A DNA stretch of 21,933 nucleotides. It comes from a virus. The stretch covers positions 1 through 21,933 of IMG/VR virus record IMGVR_UViG_3300044644_000117. One strand, 5' to 3'. This document shows, in pieces, positions 3,424-21,933 of the stretch. The position numbers were made by a program, and so were the translations under genes. Below the pieces are notes generated by a model that saw nothing but the letters and a program-made list of their open reading frames with translations, was not told the DNA's origin and searched no databases. Every line of letters begins with the position of its first letter. The stretch's first letter is position 1.

Positions 3424-4439
3424 TTTGCGGTAGGTATTAGTAGATGTCGCTTTTGTTTGATTGTAGCTGCACCAAGTCTTTTCCTTGATACACTATTGCA
3501 ATTCCCACATCTAAATAATTCATAAATGTTAGCACTAGTGTTATAACATTTGCCTTGGTCTTGAAGTTCACTACTGCCACAACTTGGACACCTATGCTCG
3601 GTTTCATCCAATATAAATAGCCCCATATTAGGATGAGGCTTTATCCAAGGTCTGATTTGTAAGTATGTCTCTTCAAGTATGCGCACGTCTTGTACGTTAT
3701 AGTCCTCCATCTCTTTGAGTGCCTTGCGGTTACCCTTCATACAATTATCCCACAATTCGAATGAGGTCTCTTTCTTGCGCTCTAAATTCAATAGCTTATT
3801 GACATAATCTAACTTATTAGAGGTAAACCCAAACTGCCTTCTAATGTGCCTTAAAGTGTCTATTACTTGATAGGGTAGTGGTGGGTTTAGACCATTTAAT
3901 ATAAATCTTGAGTTCAGCCTTGGGATGTCAAATTTCTCAGCGTTGTGCGCAATCACTATATCCGCTTCATTAACCAATTTCCAAATACCTTCCATTATCC
4001 GCTTATCATCTTGGTTGGCTACTTCCTCAGGCTTTAATTTAGCACTATATACTTTGTCCTCAAATAGCCACTTAGCTGCCCAAGTTAGGCAAAACCAATC
4101 ACTCTTGATTTGTGGCAAGTGTATGTTCTGATTCCAAATGCCCCAAACGTAAGCACTAATAGGTGCCGTCTCAATGTCAAGTATGAGGACTTTTGCGGAT
4201 GTTTGGATTTTCTCCATTTTGGTATTGGTTGTGTCGTAGTTAAGAGGTTGCTGATGTGTTCTATTTTTTAATCTATCTCTATTTGATTGACCTTGGCTAC
4301 CACGATAATAATTTATACACGCTCTTACATTATGAAATTTTAAACCACTATTCTCTTTGCAAATAATATTAGCAAGAGTATAGCTTTTCATATCTGGGTA
4401 TAATTCCAAATAAGGAATTACCAAATCTTTTGGTTTCAT
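3420..4439 (-). CDS. DEDDy 3'-5' exonuclease (RNase H-like) with C-terminal zinc ribbon
   Basis: 339 aa. Exo I is LILDIETAP (D88, E90), Exo II IVIAHNAEKFDIPRLNSRF (D171), Exo III YNVQDVRIL (Y247, D251): the four acidic residues plus Tyr of DEDDy exonucleases, as in the proofreading domain of family B polymerases and YprB-like proteins. There is no polymerase domain, so it is stand-alone. The N-terminus (1-80) looks like a small helical, possibly DNA-binding region. The C-terminus has CPSCG (C284, C287) and CGNC (C311, C314), a four-Cys zinc ribbon likely to grip nucleic acid or a partner. Likely role: 3'-end trimming, proofreading or nucleotide salvage from host DNA. ATGA overlaps join it to both neighbours. 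Confidence 0.87.
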   Translation of the reverse strand: MKPKDLVIPYLELYPDMKSYTLANIICKENSGLKFHNVRACINYYRGSQGQSNRDRLKNRTHQQPLNYDTTNTKMEKIQTSAKVLILDIETAPISAYVWGIWNQNIHLPQIKSDWFCLTWAAKWLFEDKVYSAKLKPEEVANQDDKRIMEGIWKLVNEADIVIAHNAEKFDIPRLNSRFILNGLNPPLPYQVIDTLRHIRRQFGFTSNKLDYVNKLLNLERKKETSFELWDNCMKGNRKALKEMEDYNVQDVRILEETYLQIRPWIKPHPNMGLFILDETEHRCPSCGSSELQDQGKCYNTSANIYELFRCGNCNSVSRKRLGAATIKQKRHLLIPTAK

Positions 4440-4864
4440 CTGCGTTTAATAATATAAACCACACCAGCAATTAGTATTATCCAAGCCCAAGTTAGTAATG
4501 CTCCTTTCTGCCACCAACGGAATTGCTTCTCCGTTGCGTCTCTATCTTTCTTTGCAGCCTCATATACTTTCTTGTACCTATCTACATAAATATTCTTTGA
4601 TACTATAATGATACTATCCTTGCAAGGCTGTAATATCTTCTTTATGCGCACTCTATCAATGTAATGCGTATCATTAATCCATTGGTATAAAGTGTCTGCA
4701 ATTCTCTCCACAACCAAACTATCTTTAGTAATAATAGTGGTATCGTGTACATCATTGGTAATGTATATCGTCTCAATTGCTTCAGGGTTTTTAAGAAAAT
4801 ACCTTTCAATTTTTTTTTGTGTAACACAAGATGATAATAGCAATAGTAATAATAAATATTTCAT
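4436..4864 (-). CDS. Candidate unimolecular spanin (u-spanin)
   Basis: 142 aa. N-terminus MKYLLLLLLLSSC is a lipoprotein signal with lipobox LSSC (acylated Cys13). The C-terminus has one transmembrane helix (about 121-139, GALLTWAWIILIAGVVYII) followed by KRR. A lipoprotein anchored in the outer membrane at one end and in the inner membrane at the other is the defining topology of u-spanins such as T1 gp11 (131 aa), which fuse the two membranes in the last step of Gram-negative lysis. The 100-residue linker is rich in beta-branched residues first and charged/helical later. It overlaps the endolysin stop by ATGA, the expected neighbour. No separate Rz/Rz1 pair is seen. Topology-based call; sequence relatives not tested. 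Confidence 0.72.
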   Translation of the reverse strand: MKYLLLLLLLSSCVTQKKIERYFLKNPEAIETIYITNDVHDTTIITKDSLVVERIADTLYQWINDTHYIDRVRIKKILQPCKDSIIIVSKNIYVDRYKKVYEAAKKDRDATEKQFRWWQKGALLTWAWIILIAGVVYIIKRR

Positions 4865-5875: not shown

Positions 5876-7909
5876 TTATATTATTTGAAAATGAAGTGTA
5901 AAGAAATAATTAAACGACCCAGTATTTGCTGGTGTAAATATTAAACTTGCTGTTGTTGAATTACCATAGATAATACCACAAATATTGTCTTGTGCCGTTA
6001 ACACACCATTGCATTGGTCTGCACTTGTAAAAGTTGTATTATATGGCAACTCAAGAATTACTGCTGACGTTACTCCAGCAGTTGTAGCATCCGCCTCTAA
6101 TCTACCACTTACAGACACAACATTGCCTATTCTAATGTATTGGCAGTTATATGCAGTTGTTGCACTAATGTTAGTACCAGCAGTCAAAGTAGGAGTGTAA
6201 TTACCACTTTGTGGTAGGTTATCTTGTGTTATAACTTGACCAAAGCCGTCATAGGCAAGTAGCCCAACCGCAGTGCCACTAAAACTTGTTGTGGAAGTAT
6301 AGGCATTTAATCTTAACTGCCCATTAGCATAAATAGCCAACTTATCACTTGATGCCGTTTGTACTTTAAACTGAGCAGATTCAGTTGTTTTAATTATTAA
6401 ATCACCAGTACCTCTATGTTCTAAAAAAGATGTTGTATTAGCACCAGCATTGTTCCGAATTAAACGCAAACCATAATCACTATATGTAGTGTCACCAATT
6501 AAATCAATATAGGCATACCCATTACCACTCCTACCACTTCCTATTTGCAAAGCATATTCAGACACACTACCTCCTTGACCAATAAATATTGAACTACCAT
6601 CATCTGATAATATACTATTTCCTATTGCAGTTGATGAGGTAAACTTAGGGATAACATTTGTTGTACCACTACCACCAATAGTGCCTGATATTGTTTCCCA
6701 TGAAGATGATATAACAGAAGTACCATCACCTATTTGTGAAAAATATTTTCTTGTCGTTGTGTTATTCCCAGCGAATCGTTCAGGCTCCCCAGTGCTTCGT
6801 GCTATCATTATATCTCCAGCAGTGGTCATTGGATTTGCAAACCCACCCAAACCAATTAATGTATATTCTGGAATATTTAATGCACCAGTTATAACATTAA
6901 ATGTACTTGCTCCACTGCTACCAGTTGTAGTTAAAGTTATTGCTGGTTGCTTTGATGAAAACGTAAGCCAATCTGCGGAGGATAAAAATCCGTTAGTACT
7001 ATTATTGGCTTGTGGGATAGACATTGTATTTGTTCCACTATTCCAAACTAATGGAGTAGTAGCGATAATATCTATTGGAGTTAAAAAGCTAGGAGTAAAA
7101 AACTCATATCCCGTACCAAGTGTATTTACTCTTAATAATTGCCCAGAAGTTACAGAACTTGTAGCAGTAAATGCACTCGTTCCATTTCCTATTAACACAC
7201 CAGATAAACTTGTAGCACCTGTACCGCCTTTACCTACATTTAATGTGCCATAAAGGTCGGTCATGTCTATTTGTTCCCATACTGGGCTTGTAGCTGCACT
7301 ACCAGTACCAGTAGAAGAAAGAAACATTTTTGTTGTGGTAGTATTACCAGCCAACCTACTTGGAACTCCTGCACCTGCACCAATGATAATATCACCAAGT
7401 GCAGTCATTGGGTTAGTTAAATAAGTAGCATTGAAAAACTCATATCCAGTAGCTGATGCATTAACTCTAAGTATTTGTAATGGCCCTCCAGTTACTGCAC
7501 TAAAATTACCAGTACCATTTCCGATAACAACACCAGTTAATGTTGCAACACCTGTACCTCCTTTAGTAACAGGAACTGTTCCTGTAATATTAGAAAAGTC
7601 TAATGTTGCCCATGATAATGCAGAGCCGTTAGTAGTTAAATACTTTCCACTATTACCACTTTGTGTTGGAAAATTACCTACAAATGTATAAGCATCATCC
7701 CAATTACTTTGTTTGGTGTTTGTAGGAATAGAGTAACCAGCACTAAACGCAAGTGATAAATTTATTGTTCCACTTGAGGTGATAGGAGATCCAGTAATAG
7801 TTGCAGTCAACCCAGTTGGCATTGTAGATGATAGTGCCACTGAGGTCACCGTACCGCTACCGCTACCGCTACTTGGGATATAAGTTATGAGTGATTTGTT
7901 TATTCTCAT
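5876..7909 (-). CDS. Tail fibre / receptor-binding protein, C-terminal knob type
   Basis: 677 aa, low in charge and rich in Gly, Thr, Ser, Asn. After a Gly/Ser-rich N-terminus come repeats of the type KGGTG-(x)-L(T/S)GV(V/L)IGNGT with following YEFF and NPMT.(A/L)GDI blocks (copies around residues 113-175 and 227-285, a partial third near 355). A LSSADW-SKQ segment resembles one in the fibre next door. The C-terminal part (from about 560) is a beta-rich GNYTPTLTAGTNISA module, a likely receptor-binding tip. No S74 intramolecular chaperone and no lectin-type DGR target motif is seen. ATG overlaps the stop of the long fibre (TAATG at 7911-7907). Confidence 0.85.
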   Translation of the reverse strand: MRINKSLITYIPSSGSGSGTVTSVALSSTMPTGLTATITGSPITSSGTINLSLAFSAGYSIPTNTKQSNWDDAYTFVGNFPTQSGNSGKYLTTNGSALSWATLDFSNITGTVPVTKGGTGVATLTGVVIGNGTGNFSAVTGGPLQILRVNASATGYEFFNATYLTNPMTALGDIIIGAGAGVPSRLAGNTTTTKMFLSSTGTGSAATSPVWEQIDMTDLYGTLNVGKGGTGATSLSGVLIGNGTSAFTATSSVTSGQLLRVNTLGTGYEFFTPSFLTPIDIIATTPLVWNSGTNTMSIPQANNSTNGFLSSADWLTFSSKQPAITLTTTGSSGASTFNVITGALNIPEYTLIGLGGFANPMTTAGDIMIARSTGEPERFAGNNTTTRKYFSQIGDGTSVISSSWETISGTIGGSGTTNVIPKFTSSTAIGNSILSDDGSSIFIGQGGSVSEYALQIGSGRSGNGYAYIDLIGDTTYSDYGLRLIRNNAGANTTSFLEHRGTGDLIIKTTESAQFKVQTASSDKLAIYANGQLRLNAYTSTTSFSGTAVGLLAYDGFGQVITQDNLPQSGNYTPTLTAGTNISATTAYNCQYIRIGNVVSVSGRLEADATTAGVTSAVILELPYNTTFTSADQCNGVLTAQDNICGIIYGNSTTASLIFTPANTGSFNYFFTLHFQII

Positions 7910-10900
7910 TATATTAACGTAAATGTTTTCGTTACTCCACCTATTCTCATTTTCAAGTCTGTGCCATCGAACCAGATATCACCATTTGCAGGGGATGTTG
8001 GTGCAGTTGATGAAGCTAAGTTTATTTGTGCGTTGCTTGTAGTACCAGCACCCATTGATAATTTGCTTGTTATCTTCGCAGTGCCAGTGACTTGTAGAGC
8101 CTCGCCGCTTGATGTTGAAGCTCCAATTAAAACTGCACCCCCTATTGGTTGTAATGATAATGGATAAATAGCACCTGCACCTTGTGCATGAGCAATAGTC
8201 TGAATATAGTTTGCAAAAGGAGATGTGCTATATGTACCAAAACTTAATCCGTTTGTTGTACTAAATGCTAATTGAAAAGCACCTTTATTTGTTGTACTTG
8301 GAGCATCTACTATTGAAGAAAAAACTGTTAAAGTAGCTGATGGTGATGTTGTTCCTATACCTAACCTTCCAGCCATATAATTATCAGCAGTTCCGTTCAT
8401 ATAGAGATTCCAACGGTTAGTCCCAGATGCTATATTCCCAAAGAACCCATAATTTATTGTAGCACCTATCAAAGTATTATCAACCTCAAAACCTACTTGT
8501 GTTGTTATAGTAGAACCAGCACCTATTGTGCCTTGATTCGCTAAGTAATGTGTTGCTCTTGCAACTGTAAACGCAGCAGCTTGTGTGCTTAATGTTGTAG
8601 CAATCACTTTTGGTGAGTTAGTTACATCGCTTTGAATAGTTGAATCAATATAAAAGTTGATTGCTGATGAACTACCAGTATGTGCTTTACTTATTCTTAA
8701 ATTACTACCCGTCAATGTTGTTTGTCCAATCCCCAACGACCCAGCCATATAGTTATTAGCAGTGCCACCCATGTATAAATTCCATCTATTAGTGCCAGAT
8801 GCGATATTACCAAAGAAGCCGTAGTTGTTGGTTGCACCAGTTAAAGAAGATGCAGCAACAAATCCATATTGGTTAGTTACAGTTGAACCAGCAGCAATTG
8901 AAGTTTGAGATGCACTGAATAAAACTATTGATGGTATAGTAAACGAAGCAGCAGCGGTTCTTGTAGCTGCATTTATATAAGTAGCTTCACCAGTAACATC
9001 AGATTGTATAGCTGCATCAAATAATGCACTTGTTACTAATGTAGAACCAGTCATATTTCTTGATGCTCTTATAGATTGAGTAGTTAATGCATTAGGTCCA
9101 ATCTTTAATCCATCAGAAATATATGTACTACCAATAACTTGTAGTTTCTCGCCCGAATCGGTTGTGCTGCCGATGAGAGTATTGCCATTGAAATAATTCA
9201 GTGCAGTGCCGTTCATATAGAGATTCCAACGGTTAGTACCACTAGCAATATTGCCGTAGAAACCAAAGTTGTTGGTTGCACCGATTAATGTACTATCTGC
9301 GTGAAATCCATATTGTGTACTTACTGAAGAACCAGAACCTATTGTTCCTTGAAATGCTCTATAATGAAATAAATTAGTTAATGTAAATGAAGCAGCTTGT
9401 GTTGCTGGTAAACTTAAATACATATGAGTTGTACCAGTAACATCACTTTGTATTGTGCCAGCACTATTTATTGCAGTTGTAGATGTACCTCCAGTAATAT
9501 TTTTAGATACATTTAATGTTGTACCAGTCAAACTCGTACTACCAATCCCCAATGACCCAGCCATATAGTTGTTGGCAGTCCCGTTCATATAGAGATTCCA
9601 TATGTTTGTACCAGCTGCTAAATCACTATAAAATGCATAATCGTTTGTAGCACCAGTCATTGTGCCTTGTACAAAAAATCCGTATTGGTTAGTTATTGTA
9701 GAACCAGCACCAACAGATGGTTGTGTAGCAAAGAAATGTCTGAGGTTTGTAACTGTTATTGCACTTGCAGAAGTAGAAGCCTCTGATTGAAAATAAGCTA
9801 CGTTAGATAGTGTTGACTGAATCTGACTATCCATATAAATACCGATAGTATTTCCAGTCGCTAATGCTTTTGATATTCTTAAACTTGAGGCAACCGAACC
9901 ACTATTGCCAATCCCCACACTATCACTAAAATACCCAGTCCCTACAACCTGTAACTTCTGCCCCGAATCAGTCGCACCAGTGCCAATACCGAAGTTGGTA
10001 GAAGAAAAAAACCTTGCTGCTTCAGCACCATTTGCTACTTGAAATATGTTTGCTGCACCTCTAAAAATATTAGATGCAAATGATACTTGTATATTTCTAT
10101 CAGTAGAACCAACTCTAAAAGACCTTCCACTAGGACTATCAATGTTGAATATTGTATTATCAGAACCGTCATAGGTTATGTATCCCCTTGTACCAGTAGT
10201 TCCAAATTGCAATCTTTTATTAGTTGTATCCCAAGTAAGACCAGCTTCCCCTGCTTGTGTAGTCGCACCAGTGAAGTATGCAACTTGACCGCTTGTACCC
10301 GTTCCCGTTATTGGGTTGGTTAAAGCGTTTTGTTTGCTATTAAATGTTGTCCAATCTGCACTACTCAATGCACCTCTATTCGTTGCACTTGCCGTTGGTA
10401 GATTAAATGTATGTGTACTTGTAGCTGAACTGATATTGAAATCAGTACCACTTGAACCCGTTGCGAAGGTTTGGGTTGTTGCGTTTAGTCCGTTTAGACT
10501 TGTAATCCCCACATCACTGCTCGGTGTCCAGATAGTGCCGTTATATTTAAGCACCTGACCATTAGTAGCACCAGTTGTGTCTACATCGTGCAACTCCCCT
10601 AACTCCCATCCGTTCATCACCTTAACATACAACTTACCATTGTTTGCGTGAGCATACTCAACGTAACCAATTATGATAATATGTTGAGGAGCAATAGGCT
10701 TGATGTTAGTCAATCTACCAGCCGTTGTAGGACTCAAATATATCACATCACCATCTGCCCAAGTTTCACCTTGTAATGAACCTGTTGTGTTGATGCTCTC
10801 AAGAGAACCAACGGTCATAATAAACCCTTCTTGGTTGGTAGCTATTGTTTCGGTAACAAGTCCAATCGTATCGGCACTATTATTGTCGTTATTAGCTTGT

Positions 10901-11370
10901 GCTAAAGCAACCGCTAATCTCTGCCCTTGTGCGCCGCTTATTCTTACCGCTTGATAGGCTGCCTTAGTTAGTGTAGTATTAGGGCTAACTTTATTTACCA
11001 CTCTTGCTACCAAGTCAACACCATTCTTTAAAATAACACTACCACCTTTTAGGGTTGTCTCGCTACTTCCTATCGTATCGTTCCACCTTGTTGTACCAAC
11101 CGCAGCCGTTCCAGTAGGAGATGTGTCAAGAGTCATCTGACCAGCCCTTAACTCAAACTCACCCAAGTTGACATTAGTCGTAGCACCTGTGTAAGGCACT
11201 TTAGCGTTTAATGCGTTTTGTAAATCGGTCTGATCTGATAATGTACCCGTAATATCTCCCCACACTGCACCACCATCATTAGGCACTTCATAAGACACGT
11301 TGATGTAAGTAGCACTTATCGTCTCACTTACATAAACATCGGTCACATTATATGATACTTTTATTGTCAT
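7909..11370 (-). CDS. Long repeat-containing tail fibre protein
   Basis: 1153 aa, the largest gene here. The N-terminus (1-100) ends in VPYTGATTNVNLGEFEL, an attachment-type segment common in fibres of Bacteroidota phages; about 100-260 is a folded domain with VKVMNGWELGELHDV at its end. From about residue 330 the shaft begins (LSSADWTTFNSKQ). Four tandem modules of about 125-150 residues follow, each with a WNLYMNGTA..Y phrase (near 592, 715, 863, 987) followed by (L/T)(G/I)IG. The protein ends GDIWFDGTDLKMRIGG, a frequent fibre terminus. No enzymatic domain or S74 peptidase is visible. Role: adhesion to host surface. It follows the BppU-like gene by 2 bases. Confidence 0.88.
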   Translation of the reverse strand: MTIKVSYNVTDVYVSETISATYINVSYEVPNDGGAVWGDITGTLSDQTDLQNALNAKVPYTGATTNVNLGEFELRAGQMTLDTSPTGTAAVGTTRWNDTIGSSETTLKGGSVILKNGVDLVARVVNKVSPNTTLTKAAYQAVRISGAQGQRLAVALAQANNDNNSADTIGLVTETIATNQEGFIMTVGSLESINTTGSLQGETWADGDVIYLSPTTAGRLTNIKPIAPQHIIIIGYVEYAHANNGKLYVKVMNGWELGELHDVDTTGATNGQVLKYNGTIWTPSSDVGITSLNGLNATTQTFATGSSGTDFNISSATSTHTFNLPTASATNRGALSSADWTTFNSKQNALTNPITGTGTSGQVAYFTGATTQAGEAGLTWDTTNKRLQFGTTGTRGYITYDGSDNTIFNIDSPSGRSFRVGSTDRNIQVSFASNIFRGAANIFQVANGAEAARFFSSTNFGIGTGATDSGQKLQVVGTGYFSDSVGIGNSGSVASSLRISKALATGNTIGIYMDSQIQSTLSNVAYFQSEASTSASAITVTNLRHFFATQPSVGAGSTITNQYGFFVQGTMTGATNDYAFYSDLAAGTNIWNLYMNGTANNYMAGSLGIGSTSLTGTTLNVSKNITGGTSTTAINSAGTIQSDVTGTTHMYLSLPATQAASFTLTNLFHYRAFQGTIGSGSSVSTQYGFHADSTLIGATNNFGFYGNIASGTNRWNLYMNGTALNYFNGNTLIGSTTDSGEKLQVIGSTYISDGLKIGPNALTTQSIRASRNMTGSTLVTSALFDAAIQSDVTGEATYINAATRTAAASFTIPSIVLFSASQTSIAAGSTVTNQYGFVAASSLTGATNNYGFFGNIASGTNRWNLYMGGTANNYMAGSLGIGQTTLTGSNLRISKAHTGSSSAINFYIDSTIQSDVTNSPKVIATTLSTQAAAFTVARATHYLANQGTIGAGSTITTQVGFEVDNTLIGATINYGFFGNIASGTNRWNLYMNGTADNYMAGRLGIGTTSPSATLTVFSSIVDAPSTTNKGAFQLAFSTTNGLSFGTYSTSPFANYIQTIAHAQGAGAIYPLSLQPIGGAVLIGASTSSGEALQVTGTAKITSKLSMGAGTTSNAQINLASSTAPTSPANGDIWFDGTDLKMRIGGVTKTFTLI
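8345..9960. repeat. Tandem fibre-shaft repeats
   Basis: Four imperfect copies of a 370-450 bp unit within the long fibre. A 29-base stretch is identical at 8393-8421 and 9209-9237, and 20 of its bases recur at 9581-9600; a diverged copy is near 8768-8790. DNA identity is patchy while protein phrases are kept, so copies are old enough to diverge or are maintained by recombination. Confidence 0.75.
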
Positions 11371-15115: not shown

Positions 15116-17189
15116 CTCTGTTAATTGTTGTATTTGTTCTATTTATAGATGCCACTAAATCACTTCCTCTTAATTGCAAATTCACCGCACCAGCCATTTG
15201 TAATGGACTTGGACCTATGCCACTAAAGTTAGCAGTACCAAATAATCCACCAATTTTACCAAGACCGCTAAGTGTTGCAGAAATACTTTTTGCAGCACCT
15301 AATTTTGATAATCCAGCAGTTGCTCCTCCAGACAATAATGATGCAATTAAATTAGCAATACCACTTGCAATAGCTTGTGCTAAAATTCTTTTAAATGCGT
15401 CTTTTGCTAATTGAACAAACCCATCAAATGAAACCTTACCATTTGTCAATAATTCATCAAAGAAATCTCTAAATGGTCTTGTTAAATTTGACTCTATTGA
15501 TTTTTTTAGATTTTCAAAGTTTTTTATTTGGTCTTGTATTAATTTAAATTCATTAGCACCTTTATTTATAGCATCTTGAAATCTCTGTGTTATACCAGCA
15601 TCTTGTGCAACTGTTGCTCTAATTCTTGCTAGTGCTTCTGTAATAGCTTTTTCAATATCTTCATAACTTGTTTTAACACCAGTTGTTAACTCTTTACTTA
15701 TAAGAGCATCTCTTATTTGATTCTTAAATTGTTCTAATTTTGGTGCAGTATCTTTATTGATTTCATCCCAAGCATCAGATATAATTTTAAAATCTTTTTC
15801 AGAAAATAAGACATCAATTAAGGGTTCAATATTTGTTGCTGGTAAATTACTTATAGATTTACTAAATGATTCTATATATGCTTTTGCATCAACTTTTTTT
15901 ATAGGCTTTAATGTAGGGTCAAAGTCTAAAAAATCTTGATTTCTTAATGAATTTATGCTACCAAGCAATTCAAACTGCTTTTTTCTTTCATCATTTAGCT
16001 TTTTAGCAGCTTTTGCAGCATCTTCTTCAGCTTTTCTTTGTTCTTCTAATTTATTTGTTAAATCATCAGCATTGCTAGATATTTTAGATATTGCACCTAT
16101 AACTGGCTCTAATGATTTATACCATTTGTCTGTATCGGCAGTTATCCTAGATATTTCATCCCTTTCTTTTTGTACTTTTTCTGCTGCTGCATCTAATAAT
16201 TTATTTCTAGCAGCAAGATTATTTGTTTGTAATTGTGTTAATCTTTCGCCTTTATCTTTTTTTTCTTGAGCAATTTGTAAATCTGATATTAGCTTTTTTT
16301 CAGCCTCTCTTGCCGCTAAATATTTACCATTTGTTTCAAATCTTCTTTGCTCTAAACCGTCTAACGCTTTAGATATAGCAGCTGATTTTGTTTGTAATTT
16401 TATAAACTCTAACTGAGCTTTTGCGTTTTCACCAATTAATTTTATACTTTTTGAAGTAGCTAAATTCTGTTCATCTATACCAGCTACTACATCAGGATTT
16501 ACTTTTTTTAATTCTCTGTATGCTGCAAGTCTATCTTTTTGAGATGTATTTTCATCTTGTATTGTTTTAACAAGAATATTTATTTTAGCTATTTGCGCTC
16601 CGCTATTACCAGCAGCATCAGATAGAGCTTTGTTGAAATCATTTTGTGATTTTATAGCTACTGAATTTGCACCAAATAATACCCTTACAGCATTTGATAA
16701 TGATCCATATTCTTTTATTGCAAATGTTATTGCTGCCGTTACAGCACTAAATGCTAAAAACAAACCAGCAGGTCCTACTAATGATGCACCTAATTCTTTT
16801 AAACCACCTTTTAAGCCATTTGTTTTAAAATCTAATTGACCAAATGCAGATATTACTCCTGGTAAGTTATTCTGTATTGCAATAAATCCAAATGGAGCAT
16901 CTTGTGCTACAAGTGATAAACTTGTTAATGCTCTACCAGCTTTTTTTGTTGATTCTTCGCCTTTTGCAAATGCATTACTTGTGCCGTTTAATGTACCTTG
17001 TAATCTTTGAAGAGTGCTTTCTAGTCCTTTTAATTGACTAATTTCTTGATCTGTTACTAAATTAAATGGCTTGGCAGCTATTTCTTTTTGTAAAGATTTT
17101 AAAGCATCTTTTACTTCCTTAATAGATTTTTCAAACTGACTTGCATCAGCTCCTATTGGTAATATTAATGCATTTACGTTTTCTGCCAT
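15108..17189 (-). CDS. Tape measure protein
   Basis: 693 aa. N-terminus NVNALILPIGADASQFEKSI is followed by coiled-coil heptads, hydrophobic segments at about 130-165 (LVGPAGLFLAFSAVTAAITF), a long Lys/Glu/Ala-rich coiled-coil middle (about 190-400), a second alpha-helical part, and a Gly/Ala/Leu-rich region near the C-terminus (LAQAIASGIANLIASLLSGG). The ending AVNLQLRGSDLVASINRT is typical of Bacteroidota phage tape measures. At about 0.15 nm per residue it predicts a tail near 100 nm. No lytic domain seen. It follows the chaperone pair as expected, overlapping it by 16 bases. Confidence 0.93.
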   Translation of the reverse strand: MAENVNALILPIGADASQFEKSIKEVKDALKSLQKEIAAKPFNLVTDQEISQLKGLESTLQRLQGTLNGTSNAFAKGEESTKKAGRALTSLSLVAQDAPFGFIAIQNNLPGVISAFGQLDFKTNGLKGGLKELGASLVGPAGLFLAFSAVTAAITFAIKEYGSLSNAVRVLFGANSVAIKSQNDFNKALSDAAGNSGAQIAKINILVKTIQDENTSQKDRLAAYRELKKVNPDVVAGIDEQNLATSKSIKLIGENAKAQLEFIKLQTKSAAISKALDGLEQRRFETNGKYLAAREAEKKLISDLQIAQEKKDKGERLTQLQTNNLAARNKLLDAAAEKVQKERDEISRITADTDKWYKSLEPVIGAISKISSNADDLTNKLEEQRKAEEDAAKAAKKLNDERKKQFELLGSINSLRNQDFLDFDPTLKPIKKVDAKAYIESFSKSISNLPATNIEPLIDVLFSEKDFKIISDAWDEINKDTAPKLEQFKNQIRDALISKELTTGVKTSYEDIEKAITEALARIRATVAQDAGITQRFQDAINKGANEFKLIQDQIKNFENLKKSIESNLTRPFRDFFDELLTNGKVSFDGFVQLAKDAFKRILAQAIASGIANLIASLLSGGATAGLSKLGAAKSISATLSGLGKIGGLFGTANFSGIGPSPLQMAGAVNLQLRGSDLVASINRTNTTINRVG

Positions 17190-17479
17190 TTTGTTAATCT
17201 ATTAAAGACTTCTCTATATTCTTCATCCTTTGGCTTTTCTTTCTCATCACCTGGTAATTCCCACAATGCCTCTGGTGTCTTTGGCGCAGTCTTAGGGTCT
17301 CCCATCAAACGCACCATTGTAAACATTAATAGTCTTGTCTGCTTATAGTTGTCAACCTTCTTCTCGTTATAGCCTTTAAGCATAAGAGAAAAATGTCGTG
17401 GACTCATATCAAAGAAATCACGTGGAAGAAGTTGCAACTCACCAAATGCGTAAGCCTCTATTTCCTCCCACGTGAACTC
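17174..17479 (-). CDS. Tail assembly chaperone, -1 frameshift extension (gpT-like)
   Basis: This frame has no ATG near its beginning: the first Met codon is at DFFDMSPRH, well inside the domain. Read in the -1 frame from 17479 it encodes EFTWEEIEAYAFGELQLLPR and then DFFDMSPRHFSLMLKGYNEK, continuing the upstream chaperone without a gap. The FTW-EE-A-GEL-L-P-DF-MSPR pattern matches small proteins next to tape measures. Total fusion is about 219 aa (118 + 101). Such pairs (lambda gpG/gpGT) coat the tape measure during tail assembly. A stand-alone product from TTG 17437 would be truncated. Confidence 0.8.
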   Translation of the reverse strand, partial: EFTWEEIEAYAFGELQLLPRDFFDMSPRHFSLMLKGYNEKKVDNYKQTRLLMFTMVRLMGDPKTAPKTPEALWELPGDEKEKPKDEEYREVFNRLTKWQKT

Positions 17480-17490
17480 TTTTTTTTTGC
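17419..17490 (-). promoter_or_regulatory. Programmed -1 frameshift signal
   Basis: The slippery heptamer A AAA AAG (17485-17479) lies at the end of an A9 run (17488-17480) with zero-frame codons GCA AAA AAA AAG. After a 4-base spacer comes CACGTGGGAGGA (17474-17463), able to pair with TCTTCCACGTG-like sequence at 17430-17419: 12 contiguous pairs, two of them G-U, with a 32-base loop. A AAA AAG is the classical bacterial slippery sequence (dnaX), and a downstream stem is a usual stimulator. Confidence 0.72.
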
Positions 17491-17832
17491 TTTATCATCT
17501 ACTTCTTCCGATGCAGCGACATTGCTTTTAATCATATCGCTTTCACCCCAAACTTTTATAATTTCTTTGAGTTCTTCTAAAAACTCATTTTTCAATATAT
17601 TAGTTTCAACATAATCTACTAAGTTTTCAAATGTCATTTCAGGCAAAACACCTTTTACAAGGCAGTTATTATAGTAACCACTATAAACCAAGTGTGCTAC
17701 GCCAATCTCATTTAGTTCGCCATTTTCGAAAGAGATGCCATCTACAAACTTATCAGATAAGTATCTAAAAGAAGCCATCCCAAATTTAAGTCCGACCTTT
17801 TTGTCGTTAATAGTAATAGTAGTATAGTTCAT
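17458..17832 (-). CDS. Tail assembly chaperone (gpG-like)
   Basis: 124 aa in its own frame, beginning MNYTTITINDKKVGLKFGMA and ending KKKSSRGRK. It sits between the tail tube gene (8-base gap) and the tape measure, the invariant place of tail chaperones, and carries the slippery A-run near its end. The phrase IGVAHLVYSGYYNN (43-56) recurs in such proteins of Bacteroidota phages. The basic tail is lost in the frameshifted longer form, which instead gains an acidic/hydrophobic domain. Confidence 0.85.
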   Translation of the reverse strand: MNYTTITINDKKVGLKFGMASFRYLSDKFVDGISFENGELNEIGVAHLVYSGYYNNCLVKGVLPEMTFENLVDYVETNILKNEFLEELKEIIKVWGESDMIKSNVAASEEVDDKAKKKSSRGRK

Positions 17833-17840
17833 AAGTTAGT

Positions 17841-18281
17841 TTATGGAGTTACATCCAAAAGTCCAGTAGATTGAATTGTTCCAGAGAAGTTGATAAATTC
17901 AGTAGATGACTGATTCAAAGTAAGGTCAGTAATATAACCAAAGAATTGATGATAATAAACTGCACCATAAGATGAACCGCTGAATAATGGAGATTGAACT
18001 CTTACGTTTACAAGAGTCTTTGCTACCATTGCAGCCAACAATTCTTCATAAGAAATTGCAGTTGGTGACAATGATCCAGGTGATGTTTCACAGATTGCAT
18101 CAAAGTCAACTGACATCTGTGGTTCTGAAGGCGAGGTTAATACTCCGCAGTTAGTTTGCTCAGTTGTTGCATCCATTGTTGTGTTAACTGAAGATGAACG
18201 TAAGCATACTAATCTTACAAATGTTGTACCGCCCGTTACGTCTATTTCAACGTTTTGATTAGCTCCTAAAATTTGTGGCAT
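17841..18281 (-). CDS. Major tail tube protein
   Basis: 146 aa. Beta-rich with NCGVLTSPSEPQMSVDFDAI in the middle and a C-terminal GYITDLTLNQSSTEFINFSG strand pair, consistent with the TP901-1-like tube fold in which subunits form hexameric rings. Its location between tail terminator and chaperone genes is diagnostic. No Ig-like C-terminal decoration. It would be the most abundant tail protein; no promoter of its own is visible in the 6-base gap ahead of it. Confidence 0.85.
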   Translation of the reverse strand: MPQILGANQNVEIDVTGGTTFVRLVCLRSSSVNTTMDATTEQTNCGVLTSPSEPQMSVDFDAICETSPGSLSPTAISYEELLAAMVAKTLVNVRVQSPLFSGSSYGAVYYHQFFGYITDLTLNQSSTEFINFSGTIQSTGLLDVTP

Positions 18282-18287
18282 TGTTTT

Positions 18288-18719
18288 CTATTTTTGATTT
18301 ACTAAATTGTTTATTGTTATAATTTTTCTTGCTACATAATTATCTCCATCTTGCAATGGTAAGTATCTTGAACTTGTTCTTCCAAGTGGAAAAACTTGAA
18401 AGTTTGCATCACTAAACCCAGTTATTGCTGGATTAGGGATAAGTATATTTAAAATCTGTGATGCAATATTATCTACTACTCCTAAATCATTTACTCTATA
18501 TTGCTCACTAAAAATATCAACCACTACTTCTACATCATTACCAAATGAATGGTTAGTATTATCACTTGTCTCAGTTATGTTACCAATAATTACATAGTTT
18601 TGTGGTGTAGTATCAAATGGAGTCTGCCCATACACAGGCACATCTTTGCCGTTATAAGACAAGTTGCCATTTAAGGCATTGACATAAATCACTCTCACAT
18701 TATTACTACAATCAAGCAT
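18288..18719 (-). CDS. Tail terminator / completion protein
   Basis: 143 aa. Contains DVPVYGQTPFDTTPQNYVIIGN (27-48) and VEVVVDIFSEQYRVNDLGVV, a layout of DUF3168/gpU-like tail terminators: strand, P-Y-VIIG turn, then strands before a helix. These proteins cap the tail tube and join it to the head. It overlaps the gp10-like gene by 8 bases. Identification rests on gene order as much as sequence. Confidence 0.72.
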   Translation of the reverse strand: MLDCSNNVRVIYVNALNGNLSYNGKDVPVYGQTPFDTTPQNYVIIGNITETSDNTNHSFGNDVEVVVDIFSEQYRVNDLGVVDNIASQILNILIPNPAITGFSDANFQVFPLGRTSSRYLPLQDGDNYVARKIITINNLVNQK

Positions 18720-19143
18720 TTTTACTTAGTATTTTTGCTATTTTATTTTTTAGTTTTGGAATATTTTTATTTACAGTTGGATAAAAAAATGGAGTTGCTC
18801 TTACACCTTTATTTTCTCTTCTTGTCCAAAACTTTTCACCTATGCTTTGCCAAAACTGGTCATAATTTTTTATTTTAGTTTTTTCTCCAGTTCCAAACTC
18901 TACATAAGCAGCATAAGGTGCATCAGCTCTTAATTCATAAGATAATTGTCCAACTTCTTTATAGTTTATAGAACTATATAATCTTCCATCCTCAACTGGA
19001 GCAGCAGCCAATGCTTCTTTCTCCATATCTTGCATAGTCTTTACGAATGCCTTCTCAATCTTATCAAGTCTTTCAATAAATGCTTTATCTATGCTATTCA
19101 TAGACTTATTAAAAGCACTCATATTAACTTTAGCCTTTGCCAC
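18712..19143 (-). CDS. HK97 gp10-like head-tail joining protein
   Basis: 143 aa. Helical start, then AAAPVEDGRLYSSINYKEVG (50-69), AYAAYVEFGTGEKTK and ATPFFYPTVNKN (117-128), the three consecutive signatures of the HK97 gp10 family that connects head and tail. The start codon is GTG 19143-19141 overlapping the upstream TAG (TAGTG); the next Met is at residue 8. Conserved order connector - gp10 - terminator - tube supports it. Confidence 0.9.
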   Translation of the reverse strand: MAKAKVNMSAFNKSMNSIDKAFIERLDKIEKAFVKTMQDMEKEALAAAPVEDGRLYSSINYKEVGQLSYELRADAPYAAYVEFGTGEKTKIKNYDQFWQSIGEKFWTRRENKGVRATPFFYPTVNKNIPKLKNKIAKILSKNA

Positions 19144-19703
19144 TATATAACTACTTTTTTATATTGATGATAGTTAAGCCCATCCCAATATGGATATTGT
19201 GAAATAATTCCTTTAGGATCTGCGTTCATCTTCTTACCTCTGTTCTCGTACATCCAAGCCACAAGGGTTAGGATGTCGTTCTCCAAATCTGCTGGGACGC
19301 TACCATAACCAGCTTGGTAAGTAATCTCATAAGTGCCGCCCATATAGAACCACAACTTATTACCAATCTTCTCAAAGTCCTCATTAATAGTTAATGTATC
19401 CCACATATTGATGCCACTCTTATATCTTACCAAGTCAACGCAACCAAGTGGTCCGTATGGCAAATCCACCATCCAAACTGCTGGCACTTCGCCAGTTAGT
19501 TCTACATAACTCTTAATTGTCTTGTTGACAAGTGATAAGCCAGTTAGTTTCTCCAAATGCTTTCTTGAGCTTGTGATAAGCTCATCAATCAAAGTATCGT
19601 CAGTATTATAGGTTATTCTCATCCAATCTTTGGCTTGTGTGCGGCTCACTGGCTCTACACTTGCGTCAGCGGTGACTATGATACTATCTATATAAATCGC
19701 CAT
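19143..19703 (-). CDS. Head-tail connector, gp6-like
   Basis: 186 aa. A helical N-terminus (SRTQAKDWMRITYNTDDTLI...ELITSSRKHLEKLTG, about 20-55) followed by strands with TYEITYQAGYGSVPADLEND near 124-143 is the hallmark of the gp6/gp15-type adaptor that sits below the portal: residues 'D..L..LI..A...E..TG' and 'Y.AGYG.VP..L...I'. It follows the glycosyltransferase gene by 2 bases. Confidence 0.9.
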   Translation of the reverse strand: MAIYIDSIIVTADASVEPVSRTQAKDWMRITYNTDDTLIDELITSSRKHLEKLTGLSLVNKTIKSYVELTGEVPAVWMVDLPYGPLGCVDLVRYKSGINMWDTLTINEDFEKIGNKLWFYMGGTYEITYQAGYGSVPADLENDILTLVAWMYENRGKKMNADPKGIISQYPYWDGLNYHQYKKVVI

Positions 19704-19705
19704 AC

Positions 19706-20680
19706 TTATCCGTTGTATTTATTAACTTCTTCTCTGAGCCACTGCTCAAACTCATCAAGTGCTTTTCTTGGGTCGTGTTCTCTTGCTCTTCCTTTTGCTT
19801 TTTTAGATGCTGCTGCGTATGCTTTGGCATCATCAAGTTTCGTAATTTCTTTAACCCAGCTTTGAATATCATTTCTATCCTTTATAAATATTCCAGCCTT
19901 CCCACAATTCTCCTTCAACCCTTCCGCTTCAGAGCAAATAACTGGTATCCCACTACTCATTGCTTCAGTTGCAGTCATTCCCCAACTCTCATAGGTGCTT
20001 GGCATCAGTAGTATTCTTGTCTGTTTATAAACAGAAAGTATATCAGTAGTTTTGTTAATATAAGTAATATTTGGCAAGTTTGAAGTTATTTGGTTATCGT
20101 ATGAACCCATCACACCTAAAAACTTTTTATTAGGCATTAATCTTGCTATCTCTTCAAATATCTTACCACCCTTATTTTCATTTAAATTTATCAGTGTAAT
20201 ATATTGATTATCAATCGTTTCTACATTAGTATCATAATCACGATAATCAACTGGTGGTGTAAGTATAAAGTTACTCCATTTATAAGCCAATTTCTGTTTT
20301 GCCCATAAAGAGTTATACACTATATGTTGAGAAATTTCTGCATTTTGAATCTCAGGATATAAATGTGTGTTATGTATAAGATGAAATAAAGGCTTTCTAA
20401 ACATTCCAGCCATACCTATTGACCATCTTGTATAGTCTAAATGCGTAAATACACAATTTGACCATCTAAATAAATTTTCAATAACATTTTGGTTAGGAGG
20501 AAATACATCCACACCATCGTAAGTGTAAGTGTTTGTAATCTTATAATGATTAGCTTGATGCAATAACACCCTAACGTGATGCCCTTTGCTTTGTAAATGC
20601 TTTATCATTCTATGAGCCATCATCTCAGCACCGCAAAGATGCTCAGGAGGATATAAGTGTATGCTAAAAAGTATATTCAT
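19706..20680 (-). CDS. GT4-type glycosyltransferase
   Basis: 324 aa, GT-B fold. The N-terminal acceptor domain starts MNILFSIHLYPPEHLCGAEM with the Gly/Ala-Glu turn common in GT4 enzymes. The C-terminal nucleotide-sugar domain has TLINLNENKGG (162-172), LPNITYI (202-208) and the E-x7-E motif ESWGMTATE (E231, E239) followed by AMSSGIPVICSEAEGLKE. The enzyme should move a sugar from a nucleotide donor to an acceptor with retention. It lies within the capsid-to-connector gene run beside an FkbM methyltransferase, so virion protein or host-surface glycosylation are the leading guesses. Start overlaps the upstream gene by 17 bases. Confidence 0.93.
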   Translation of the reverse strand: MNILFSIHLYPPEHLCGAEMMAHRMIKHLQSKGHHVRVLLHQANHYKITNTYTYDGVDVFPPNQNVIENLFRWSNCVFTHLDYTRWSIGMAGMFRKPLFHLIHNTHLYPEIQNAEISQHIVYNSLWAKQKLAYKWSNFILTPPVDYRDYDTNVETIDNQYITLINLNENKGGKIFEEIARLMPNKKFLGVMGSYDNQITSNLPNITYINKTTDILSVYKQTRILLMPSTYESWGMTATEAMSSGIPVICSEAEGLKENCGKAGIFIKDRNDIQSWVKEITKLDDAKAYAAASKKAKGRAREHDPRKALDEFEQWLREEVNKYNG

Positions 20681-21227
20681 AGATAATGTCAGCTTCTAAT
20701 ATAATTACGTTATTTGGATTGGTCTTTTGTATAAAGTATTGTAAAAACTCATTATCTACATAATGCGTCTCAAATTTTAATTGCTTTATTTTGTACTTGT
20801 CAATATCAATGCTATCAACAATTACTTGGTCATACCCCTCACAATCTACTTGCACATAATCCACTTCCTCAAAGCCATACTTCTCGCACAACATATCAAA
20901 AGTTACTGCCTTCGCTTCGTGGTAAGTTAACTCATCTATCTTTGCCAAATATCTATTAAGTGGTGTGCCAAACTTAACTACACTACTACACCCACCTAAA
21001 AAATCCTCAGCATCAGGCAAATATGCCATCACTATGTCCTCTATCCTATCACTAACAACTGAGTTCTCAAGGAATACTTTACAACTCAATTTCTCTACGT
21101 TCTTTTGCAGTTTCTTGAACTGATGTGGTATAGGCTCCACAAATAAAGCAACATCATCTTTTGTTAGTTTGTCAAATATATTGTCAAAGCTAACTCCATC
21201 CATTGCCCCTATAATAATATAGTTCAT
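20664..21227 (-). CDS. FkbM-family SAM-dependent methyltransferase
   Basis: 187 aa from ATG 21227. A longer open frame reaches 21326 but runs through the terminator and into the capsid gene, so this later start is chosen. Motif I IIIGAMDG (4-11) binds SAM, followed by the acidic FVEPIP (29-34), and the FkbM hallmark VDYVQVDCEGYDQVIV (122-137), then QLKFE (149-153). FkbM enzymes typically O-methylate sugars or glycans, which suits the adjoining glycosyltransferase. It begins only 4 bases after the T-tract of the capsid-gene terminator, so its expression depends on read-through or an unseen promoter. Confidence 0.9.
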   Translation of the reverse strand: MNYIIIGAMDGVSFDNIFDKLTKDDVALFVEPIPHQFKKLQKNVEKLSCKVFLENSVVSDRIEDIVMAYLPDAEDFLGGCSSVVKFGTPLNRYLAKIDELTYHEAKAVTFDMLCEKYGFEEVDYVQVDCEGYDQVIVDSIDIDKYKIKQLKFETHYVDNEFLQYFIQKTNPNNVIILEADIIYEYTF

Positions 21228-21230
21228 AAG

Positions 21231-21261
21231 TAAAAATAAGGGGAGAGAAACTCCCTCCCCT
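21231..21261 (-). terminator. Intrinsic terminator behind the major capsid gene
   Basis: Minus strand: stem AGGGGAG (21261-21255), loop GGAGTTTCT, stem CTCCCCT (21245-21239), then TATTTTTA (21238-21231). Seven contiguous pairs, mostly G-C; the loop can add two more. It lies 14 bases after the capsid stop and would give the capsid mRNA higher abundance than downstream genes. Confidence 0.85.
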
Positions 21262-21274
21262 ATATTTATAAACC

Positions 21275-21933
21275 TTAGATTGCTCCGTAAACAGCAGCAG
21301 TTGGTTGGAACTGAAGAAGTTCGCAACGAGCTTCTGCTCTGAAAGTGATAAGGTTCTTGATAAAATCATCTTGATCGAACTCGGTAGAACGAACTGCAAG
21401 ACCGCTTTGCTGAGCAATAGCGTACTTAGTAGTGTCCATAACGTACATTCTAGATGCAGTTACCAAGCTATGAGGAATAACTGGGATACCTACGATTCTA
21501 ACGTTACCATTGTTATCGATAACCATTCCACCAGGTACTGAGTAATCAGCAGGCTTGGTTTTCAACAATGAAGCCCAACCAGCGTGAGTAATCAAAGAAA
21601 GGTTTGGAGTCCAGTTCAATGCACCAAGTTGTGCAACGTAATCGATGAACTTCTCAGCGGTGTTAGCACCAGAAGAAGAACCAGCAGTTGCAGAAGATGC
21701 GATAGCGTTAAGATAATAAGTATCTTCAGCCTTCTGGAAATCTTCAATCAATGACTGCTGCAAGTAAGCTTGCAAGAATGGAAGGTCATCAATCATCTGA
21801 CGAGATACTTTAGCGTAACCAGCGATGAAAGACAACGCAGTGTTTACAACTGTTACATCGTAATCAACTTGTGGCTTTGCAGAACCTTCAGTTTGCTTAC
21901 CGAAAGAACCTTCACCTACTGGAGTGTTACCTC
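21275..21933 (-). CDS. HK97-fold major capsid protein, partial (N-terminus beyond window)
   Basis: The frame stays open to the window edge; the visible 219 residues begin near GNTPVGEGSFGKQTEG and read through PQVDYDVTVVNTALSFIAGY with no start codon. Next come the HK97-type segments SRQMIDDLPFLQAYLQQSL, AEDTYYLNAIAS, a flexible Ser/Gly loop, and the late domain from WTPNLSLITHAGWASLL to YAIAQQSGLAVRSTEFDQDD and the ending FQPTAAVYGAI. This is the C-terminal two-thirds of an HK97 gp5-like coat protein (A and P domains). The ORF often starts at TTG 21835 in automatic calls, which is an internal Leu codon. Confidence 0.92.
   Translation of the reverse strand, partial: GNTPVGEGSFGKQTEGSAKPQVDYDVTVVNTALSFIAGYAKVSRQMIDDLPFLQAYLQQSLIEDFQKAEDTYYLNAIASSATAGSSSGANTAEKFIDYVAQLGALNWTPNLSLITHAGWASLLKTKPADYSVPGGMVIDNNGNVRIVGIPVIPHSLVTASRMYVMDTTKYAIAQQSGLAVRSTEFDQDDFIKNLITFRAEARCELLQFQPTAAVYGAI

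Follow-up and report, generated by a model that had tools for sequence, protein, structure and literature searches.

Efficient programmed translational bypassing in phages is known from essentially one example, gene 60 of phage T4, which has been called unique (PMC3014915), and its counterparts have long been presumed without being found (PMC5009743). In T4 the gap is 50 nt long and contains a stem-loop, its take-off and landing codons are both GGA, GAG precedes the landing site, and the system also includes a neighbouring HNH gene and a nascent-peptide signal (PMC3014915, PMC5009743). Virion glycosylation has more than one described case. According to Freeman et al. (2023), as cited in PMC11256854, glycosyltransferases of mycobacteriophages Che8 and Rita have been proposed to decorate the capsid protein, and the capsid glycans of Che8 shield it from antibodies; in the cluster F1 phage Maravista, glycosyltransferases are described near the 3' end of the genome. 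In the chlorovirus PBCV-1, protein A064R unites two glycosyltransferases with a sugar methyltransferase and provides capsid glycans with two sugars and a methyl cap (PMC7019647).

The window, i.e. the whole stretch of DNA analysed here, is a 21.9-kb IMG/VR fragment; gene content outside it was therefore judged from relatives. On its minus strand the capsid gene is followed by a terminator-like hairpin, an FkbM-type and a GT4-type gene, the connector gene and then the neck, tail terminator and tail tube genes. An earlier note on this DNA had placed the two enzymes between the capsid gene and a gp6-like connector, and both the order and the Pfam and PHROG matches agree. By itself this glycan slot would be a modest new member of the known virion-glycosylation systems. 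The surprising part of the results is a bypass-like mobile cassette in the core gene of the slot, which was found in relatives. The features of the window are as follows.

21275..21931, minus strand: major capsid protein (MCP), HK97 fold, 5'-truncated by the contig end, start missing (PF05065, E = 5.9e-15; phrog_10, major head protein)
21239..21261, minus strand: terminator-like hairpin 3' of the capsid gene (10-bp stem, 3-nt loop, T-rich tail)
20664..21227, minus strand: FkbM-type SAM methyltransferase, 187 aa, exchangeable partner (PF05050, E = 1.1e-8)
19706..20680, minus strand: GT4 (GT-B fold) glycosyltransferase, 324 aa, fixed gene of the slot (PF00534, E = 2.2e-15)
20632..20633, minus strand: GT4 codon 16/17 junction between TGC and GGT, empty in the window (from the alignment of element-bearing with element-free alleles)
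19143..19703, minus strand: gp6-like head-tail connector (PF05135, E = 2.6e-8; phrog_442, head-tail adaptor)
18712..19143, minus strand: HK97-gp10-like tail completion/neck protein (PF04883, E = 3.4e-9; phrog_5)
18288..18719, minus strand: tail terminator protein (phrog_176, E = 2.8e-11)
17841..18281, minus strand: major tail protein (phrog_1407, E = 3e-12)

Rfam and tRNA scans of the window gave no match. Two small ORFs at the position of tail-assembly chaperones (17174-17437 and 17458-17832, minus strand), which may form a frameshift pair, matched phrog_183 and phrog_16333 (unknown). Further along, two adjoining long tail-region proteins of 1153 and 677 aa (7909-11370 and 5876-7909, minus strand) are without Pfam match, and the larger one contains repeat units of the type GATNxYGFxGNIASGTNRWNLYMNGTANNYMAGSLGIG.

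The profile search for the two enzymes that had been recommended earlier gave significant matches to PF05050 and PF00534. Matches of the GT4 ORF were to PF00534 (E = 2e-15), PF13692 (E = 1.5e-14) and phrog_26352 (E = 4e-69). Its AlphaFold model is a confident GT-B fold (pLDDT 92.4), closest among solved structures to the retaining GT4 enzymes MshA, BshA and PimA (TM about 0.75), with WaaG and PglA also among the fold matches. In the model, codons 1-16 form β-strand 1 and a conserved loop with the invariant residues H8, Y10, P12, H14 and C16, and helix 1 begins at codon 17. The FkbM ORF, which starts with ATG, scored 35.9 bits with PF05050 (Methyltransf_21; cut-off 22.7), and its product is a putative sugar O-methyltransferase. 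No match was obtained for the FkbM protein in cultured phages or for its profile in solved structures. Loss of the catalytic residues and the SAM motif in homologues had been named as evidence against the earlier interpretation; instead, E231 and E239 of the GT4 EX7E catalytic/donor motif are invariant in 33 relatives, as are the FkbM SAM motifs G7-A-M-D-G11, E31-P32 and D128-x-E130-G131 in 23. The two ORFs overlap by 17 nt, which suggests that their translation may be coupled. The best GT4 match in a cultured phage was gp20 of Streptomyces phage TurkishDelight, whose gene likewise stands in the interval from the capsid gene to the major tail gene. GT4 relatives of ~35% identity, mostly as two tandem copies with the motif HAYPPxHNAGAE, occur on a separate branch (L263-L283, L135, L136) that has matches to Streptomyces genomes.

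The hairpin between the capsid gene and the pair is real, as the earlier note had stated: the 10-bp stem plus TTATTTTT has a folding energy of -18.4 kcal/mol (z = -2.9). Of 93 loci, nearly all have a hairpin with T-run 3' of the capsid gene, irrespective of the type of partner; Flavobacterium phage 11b, which has no glycan gene there, is among them. The terminator is a feature of the capsid gene. Since it occurs with every partner and, in 11b, without glycan genes, it gives no hint of their function, and the argument that attenuated expression favours a virion-linked role had to be given up. Being universal after the MCP gene, the terminator was discarded as evidence.

Relatives were gathered by IMG/VR protein scans (about 70 distinct loci in the first round, more later). 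An empty slot was seen in none of the close relatives, in a sample that tracked sequence similarity and in which slot-less ones could therefore be under-represented. Within the window's own lineage, 0-15 bp separate the end of GT4 from the connector in every locus that shows both genes, and in distant lineages the gene preceding the connector is still a GT4. Between capsid gene and GT4 lie one to three genes of four kinds, namely FkbM, a GT25-like gene (C1), a second SAM methyltransferase (C2) and a NUMOD4-HNH gene. The immediate upstream neighbour was C2 for 46 GT4 alleles, the GT25-like gene for 38, FkbM for 33 and the type B HNH gene (HNH_B) for seven. C2 has weak matches to Methyltransf_12/25. 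The GT25-like protein is without Pfam match, and its AlphaFold model (pLDDT 94.8) is closest to COLGALT1/GT25 (E about 1e-8, TM 0.74), a protein glycosyltransferase family.

The earlier description of an inserted pair thus needs revision, as GT4 belongs permanently to the module and FkbM is one among several exchangeable partners. Nor was the view supported that the interval is normally held by structural genes: outside the lineage, in the cultured phages Cellulophaga phi10:1 and Flavobacterium 11b, whose capsids are related, it contains small unknown ORFs alone, and the slot is therefore not required by the capsid type as such.

In distant Bacteroidota phages, including Taibaiella- and Saprospiraceae-binned contigs, the same interval is occupied by a larger glycan island in the order GT25-like gene, GT11 gene (PF01531), further genes without assignment, GT4, connector. 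The GT25-like gene of these islands is homologous to C1 (hhalign 99.6%). A gene of 193-201 aa in the islands, at first labelled FkbM-like, was rejected as a true FkbM (no Pfam match, hhalign probability 0.6%). In Bacteroidota phages the slot is a long-conserved site for glycan genes, located within the block of virion genes. Across loci, GT4 identity correlated with that of the connector (rho 0.81) and the tail terminator (0.76) and not with that of MCP (0.19, not significant), which places a recombination joint inside the slot. In one locus (L069, about 4229-4790) the GT25-like gene is frameshifted and FkbM is present in the slot as well, suggesting that partners can replace one another.

The pair probably represents, in this phage, a virion-glycosylation slot that is conserved throughout a lineage of Bacteroidota siphophages, themselves probably virulent. 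The fixed retaining GT-B/GT4 enzyme would be made late, together with the head-tail proteins, and would most likely take the sugar from a host nucleotide-sugar and attach it to a virion protein or a glycan on it. The swappable partner upstream (here FkbM, elsewhere the GT25-like enzyme or the second methyltransferase) would extend or cap the sugar, so that phages with nearly identical capsids would show different glycans. Partners would be exchanged through recombination in the slot, aided by NUMOD4-HNH homing endonucleases. The virion as acceptor and the identity of the sugar are what we infer here. The glycan-building and capping role and the link to the virion block that were proposed earlier are supported; by position GT4 belongs to the structural block, standing directly before the connector in every relative in which the two genes can be seen. 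A connector or tail protein as acceptor would be compatible with the correlation between GT4 and connector, which linkage alone could also produce. In 14 near-complete relatives (records of 30-41 kb from phages of ~34 kb) neither a tyrosine integrase nor a hypermodification gene of the thymidylate-synthase type or hydroxymethylase was found, and each record contained exactly one PF00534 gene; this gene content speaks against both lysogenic conversion and hypermodification of the DNA, and in favour of a late role tied to the virion.

It is possible, though in our view unlikely, that the enzymes alter the host surface (LPS, capsule or S-layer glycan) and so block superinfection by sister phages in the late phase. 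The fold matches of GT4 include lipid-, thiol- and LPS-sugar transferases (MshA, BshA, PimA, WaaG), so that an LPS or capsule target is possible, and the nearest solved folds include WaaG, PglA and PimA. Moreover, GT4 and FkbM families are common in LPS and capsule loci, and variation of the partner would fit diversification of a surface. Against this, the lack of an integrase in the 14 relatives leaves no lysogenic host in need of protection, neither a membrane flippase nor a GtrA/B-type partner was seen in the slot, and the position of the slot is fixed within the head-tail block. Glycosylation of phage DNA by GT4, in the manner of the T4 glucosyltransferases, is highly improbable, given that one viral structural neighbour (rank 40) annotated as DNA alpha-glucosyltransferase has to be set against the lack of thymidylate-synthase/hydroxymethylase family genes in the same 14 relatives, the location of GT4 among head-tail genes and the protein/glycan type of the partner enzymes.

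Read as a virion-glycosylation slot, the locus differs from its mycobacteriophage counterparts in that the genes lie between capsid and connector, in a fixed slot with an exchangeable methyltransferase or GT25 partner. With PBCV-1 it would share the scheme of a glycosyltransferase followed by a sugar methyltransferase that together build a methyl-capped capsid glycan; in that virus, variation of the capsid glycan yields antigenic variants (PMC7019647). A064R, however, has three domains in one protein of a eukaryotic virus and acts on N-glycans, whereas the slot consists of separate phage genes accompanied by homing endonucleases. A fixed transferase with swappable partners suggests that virion glycans of Bacteroidota phages would vary fast while capsids barely change.

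In relatives, an element of 47, 48, 49 or 50 nt interrupts the reading frame of GT4 directly after codon 16; it was seen in 16 contigs, which represent at least nine lineages. The site is HLYPPxH[L/N]C followed by GAE, and the layout is TGC, CTCTTGGGGGTGTGTCTTAAYTGATGCACCCTCARGAGGT, 4-7 nt and a second TGC, after which the gene resumes with GGA.

Hairpin elements within GT4: L018:2024-2076, L019:8043-8096, L036:2073-2124, L068:2222-2275, L118:5685-5740, L125, L126:2878-2932, L285, L286
NUMOD4-HNH genes in the slot, of at least two types: L018:1488-1982, L016, L103, L068, L134:6699-7202

All element-bearing alleles have TGC before the gap and at its end; in element-free alleles codon 16 is TGC (70) or TGT (45). 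The element folds into a hairpin of 18-19 bp (-32 to -34 kcal/mol, z about -8 to -10), and in the L285/L286 variant three stem pairs are changed on both sides with pairing kept. Every version introduces a stop in the take-off frame or a change of frame, so that ordinary reading cannot yield GT4. The first stop in the take-off frame comes 8 codons on in most elements and within the linker in L285. A purine-rich AAGAGG or AGGAGG precedes the landing site. The window was excluded as a carrier: it contains no match to the element with 3 mismatches allowed, and its GT4 site is empty. No match to the element pattern was found in a scan of bacterial genome contigs, and comparison of element-bearing DNA with cultured phages gave a 21-nt chance match alone. 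Matches of a relaxed pattern in L284 and L287 lie outside any GT4, with other stems and contexts, and were judged to be chance. The frameshift of the GT25-like gene in L069 was likewise rejected as a further element, being a small deletion without hairpin.

In the reading that we favour and consider rather probable, an endonuclease and a bypass hairpin form an invasive cassette in a Bacteroidota phage lineage that entered GT4 at codon 16/17 at least nine times, with host ribosomes skipping the 47-50 nt. To make GT4, the ribosome would take off from the first TGC, pass over the hairpin and land on the second one. It is the bypassing itself that we infer, and the element is a candidate translational bypass. 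On present evidence it would work in the manner of a byp cassette and is a candidate for one. Likeness to T4 gene 60 extends to the size of the gap, the matched codons, the hairpin, the purine-rich stretch before landing and the HNH neighbour; here, too, the gap lies inside one ORF with the downstream frame open. The matched codons, however, are TGC/TGC (Cys) and not GGA/GGA, the gap is variable in length, and unlike in T4 it consists wholly of one hairpin. T4 gene 60 has a stop directly 3' of the take-off codon and a nascent-peptide signal about 30 residues before it, whereas the element has no stop in that position, and the 16 residues that precede its take-off are too few for a signal of the T4 type. 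Finally, the element resides in a different gene and in at least nine lineages, gene 60 in one phage.

A NUMOD4-HNH gene lies directly upstream of seven of the 11 element-bearing alleles (some of them closely related, making about five independent cases) as against none of 113 element-free alleles with assigned neighbour (Fisher p = 4e-9). Its stop overlaps the GT4 start by 4 nt. This is HNH type B; type A is located directly after the capsid gene, before intact partners. In element alleles without endonuclease, FkbM or the C2 methyltransferase precedes the element. Two comparisons with element-free sisters gave a sharp step in divergence at the site, with dS of 1.38 upstream and 0.04 downstream for L018 versus L015, and of 1.70 and 0.06 for L105 versus L070. 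The resume codon is GGA in eight of nine element-bearing alleles and in 11 of 115 others, and the nine alleles that carry the element lie dispersed in the GT4 tree among sisters that lack it. Upstream linkage, replaced first 16 codons and GGA resume codon suggest joint movement of endonuclease, 5' exon and hairpin. The endonuclease would arrive, in some relatives, with the first 16 GT4 codons and the 47-50-nt hairpin at codon 16/17. The architecture, NUMOD4 plus HNH_3 (PF07463, PF13392), is that of free-standing NUMOD4-HNH endonucleases, which differ in that the present ones are tied to a hairpin in the neighbouring glycosyltransferase gene and overlap its start.

The element might merely inactivate GT4, the element-bearing copies being recent pseudogenes. 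A stable hairpin with in-frame stops that was gained on terminal branches only is what this explanation would predict, and we assign it a low though not negligible probability. It has to contend with several observations. All nine full-length element-bearing alleles retain 306-308 open codons after the gap. On element-bearing terminal branches N/S was 0.41 (S = 155.5, N = 64.5), compared with 0.53 for terminal branches that lack the element and a neutral expectation of about 3.2, and about 32 stop mutations would be expected had the element-bearing branches been unselected along their whole length; both the ratio and the stop expectation are to be read with the insertions sitting on terminal branches, where each could be late. 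The first 16 codons differ from those of the nearest element-free sister mostly by synonymous changes, and the three compensatory changes in the stem likewise speak against decay. As codons 1-16 encode β-strand 1 and its loop and codon 17 starts helix 1, both sides of the gap are needed. The split GT4 gene looks alive and under normal purifying selection, judging from these patterns.

Very improbable is a stop at TGA with restart at an overlapping ATG, giving GT4 a new N-terminus: the sequence TGATG is present in most elements, with ATG in the GT4 frame in the 47- and 50-nt versions, but in the 48- and 49-nt versions ATG falls outside the GT4 frame, the L285/L286 variant has lost it, and restart would discard β-strand 1 with all five invariant loop residues.

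If true, T4 gene 60 would no longer be the sole phage bypass system, and the cassette would be the second such system and the first to be observed as it spreads through populations. Its different gap lengths at one site, with element-free sisters, would make a natural series for comparative and experimental dissection of what bypassing needs on ribosomes of another phylum. The evolutionary logic, in which a hairpin may protect a gene from the linked endonuclease while the protein stays intact, becomes testable as well.

In a Taibaiella MAG contig (L133, about 10001-10060) GT4 carries an in-frame CCG TAA CCG in the same loop, and a 6-nt skip from CCG to CCG would restore LYPPTHNCGGE. The sequence is compatible with a minimal stop-hop, but also with a null mutation or a misassembly; as a stop-hop of 6 nt it may represent a related but minimal case of bypass.
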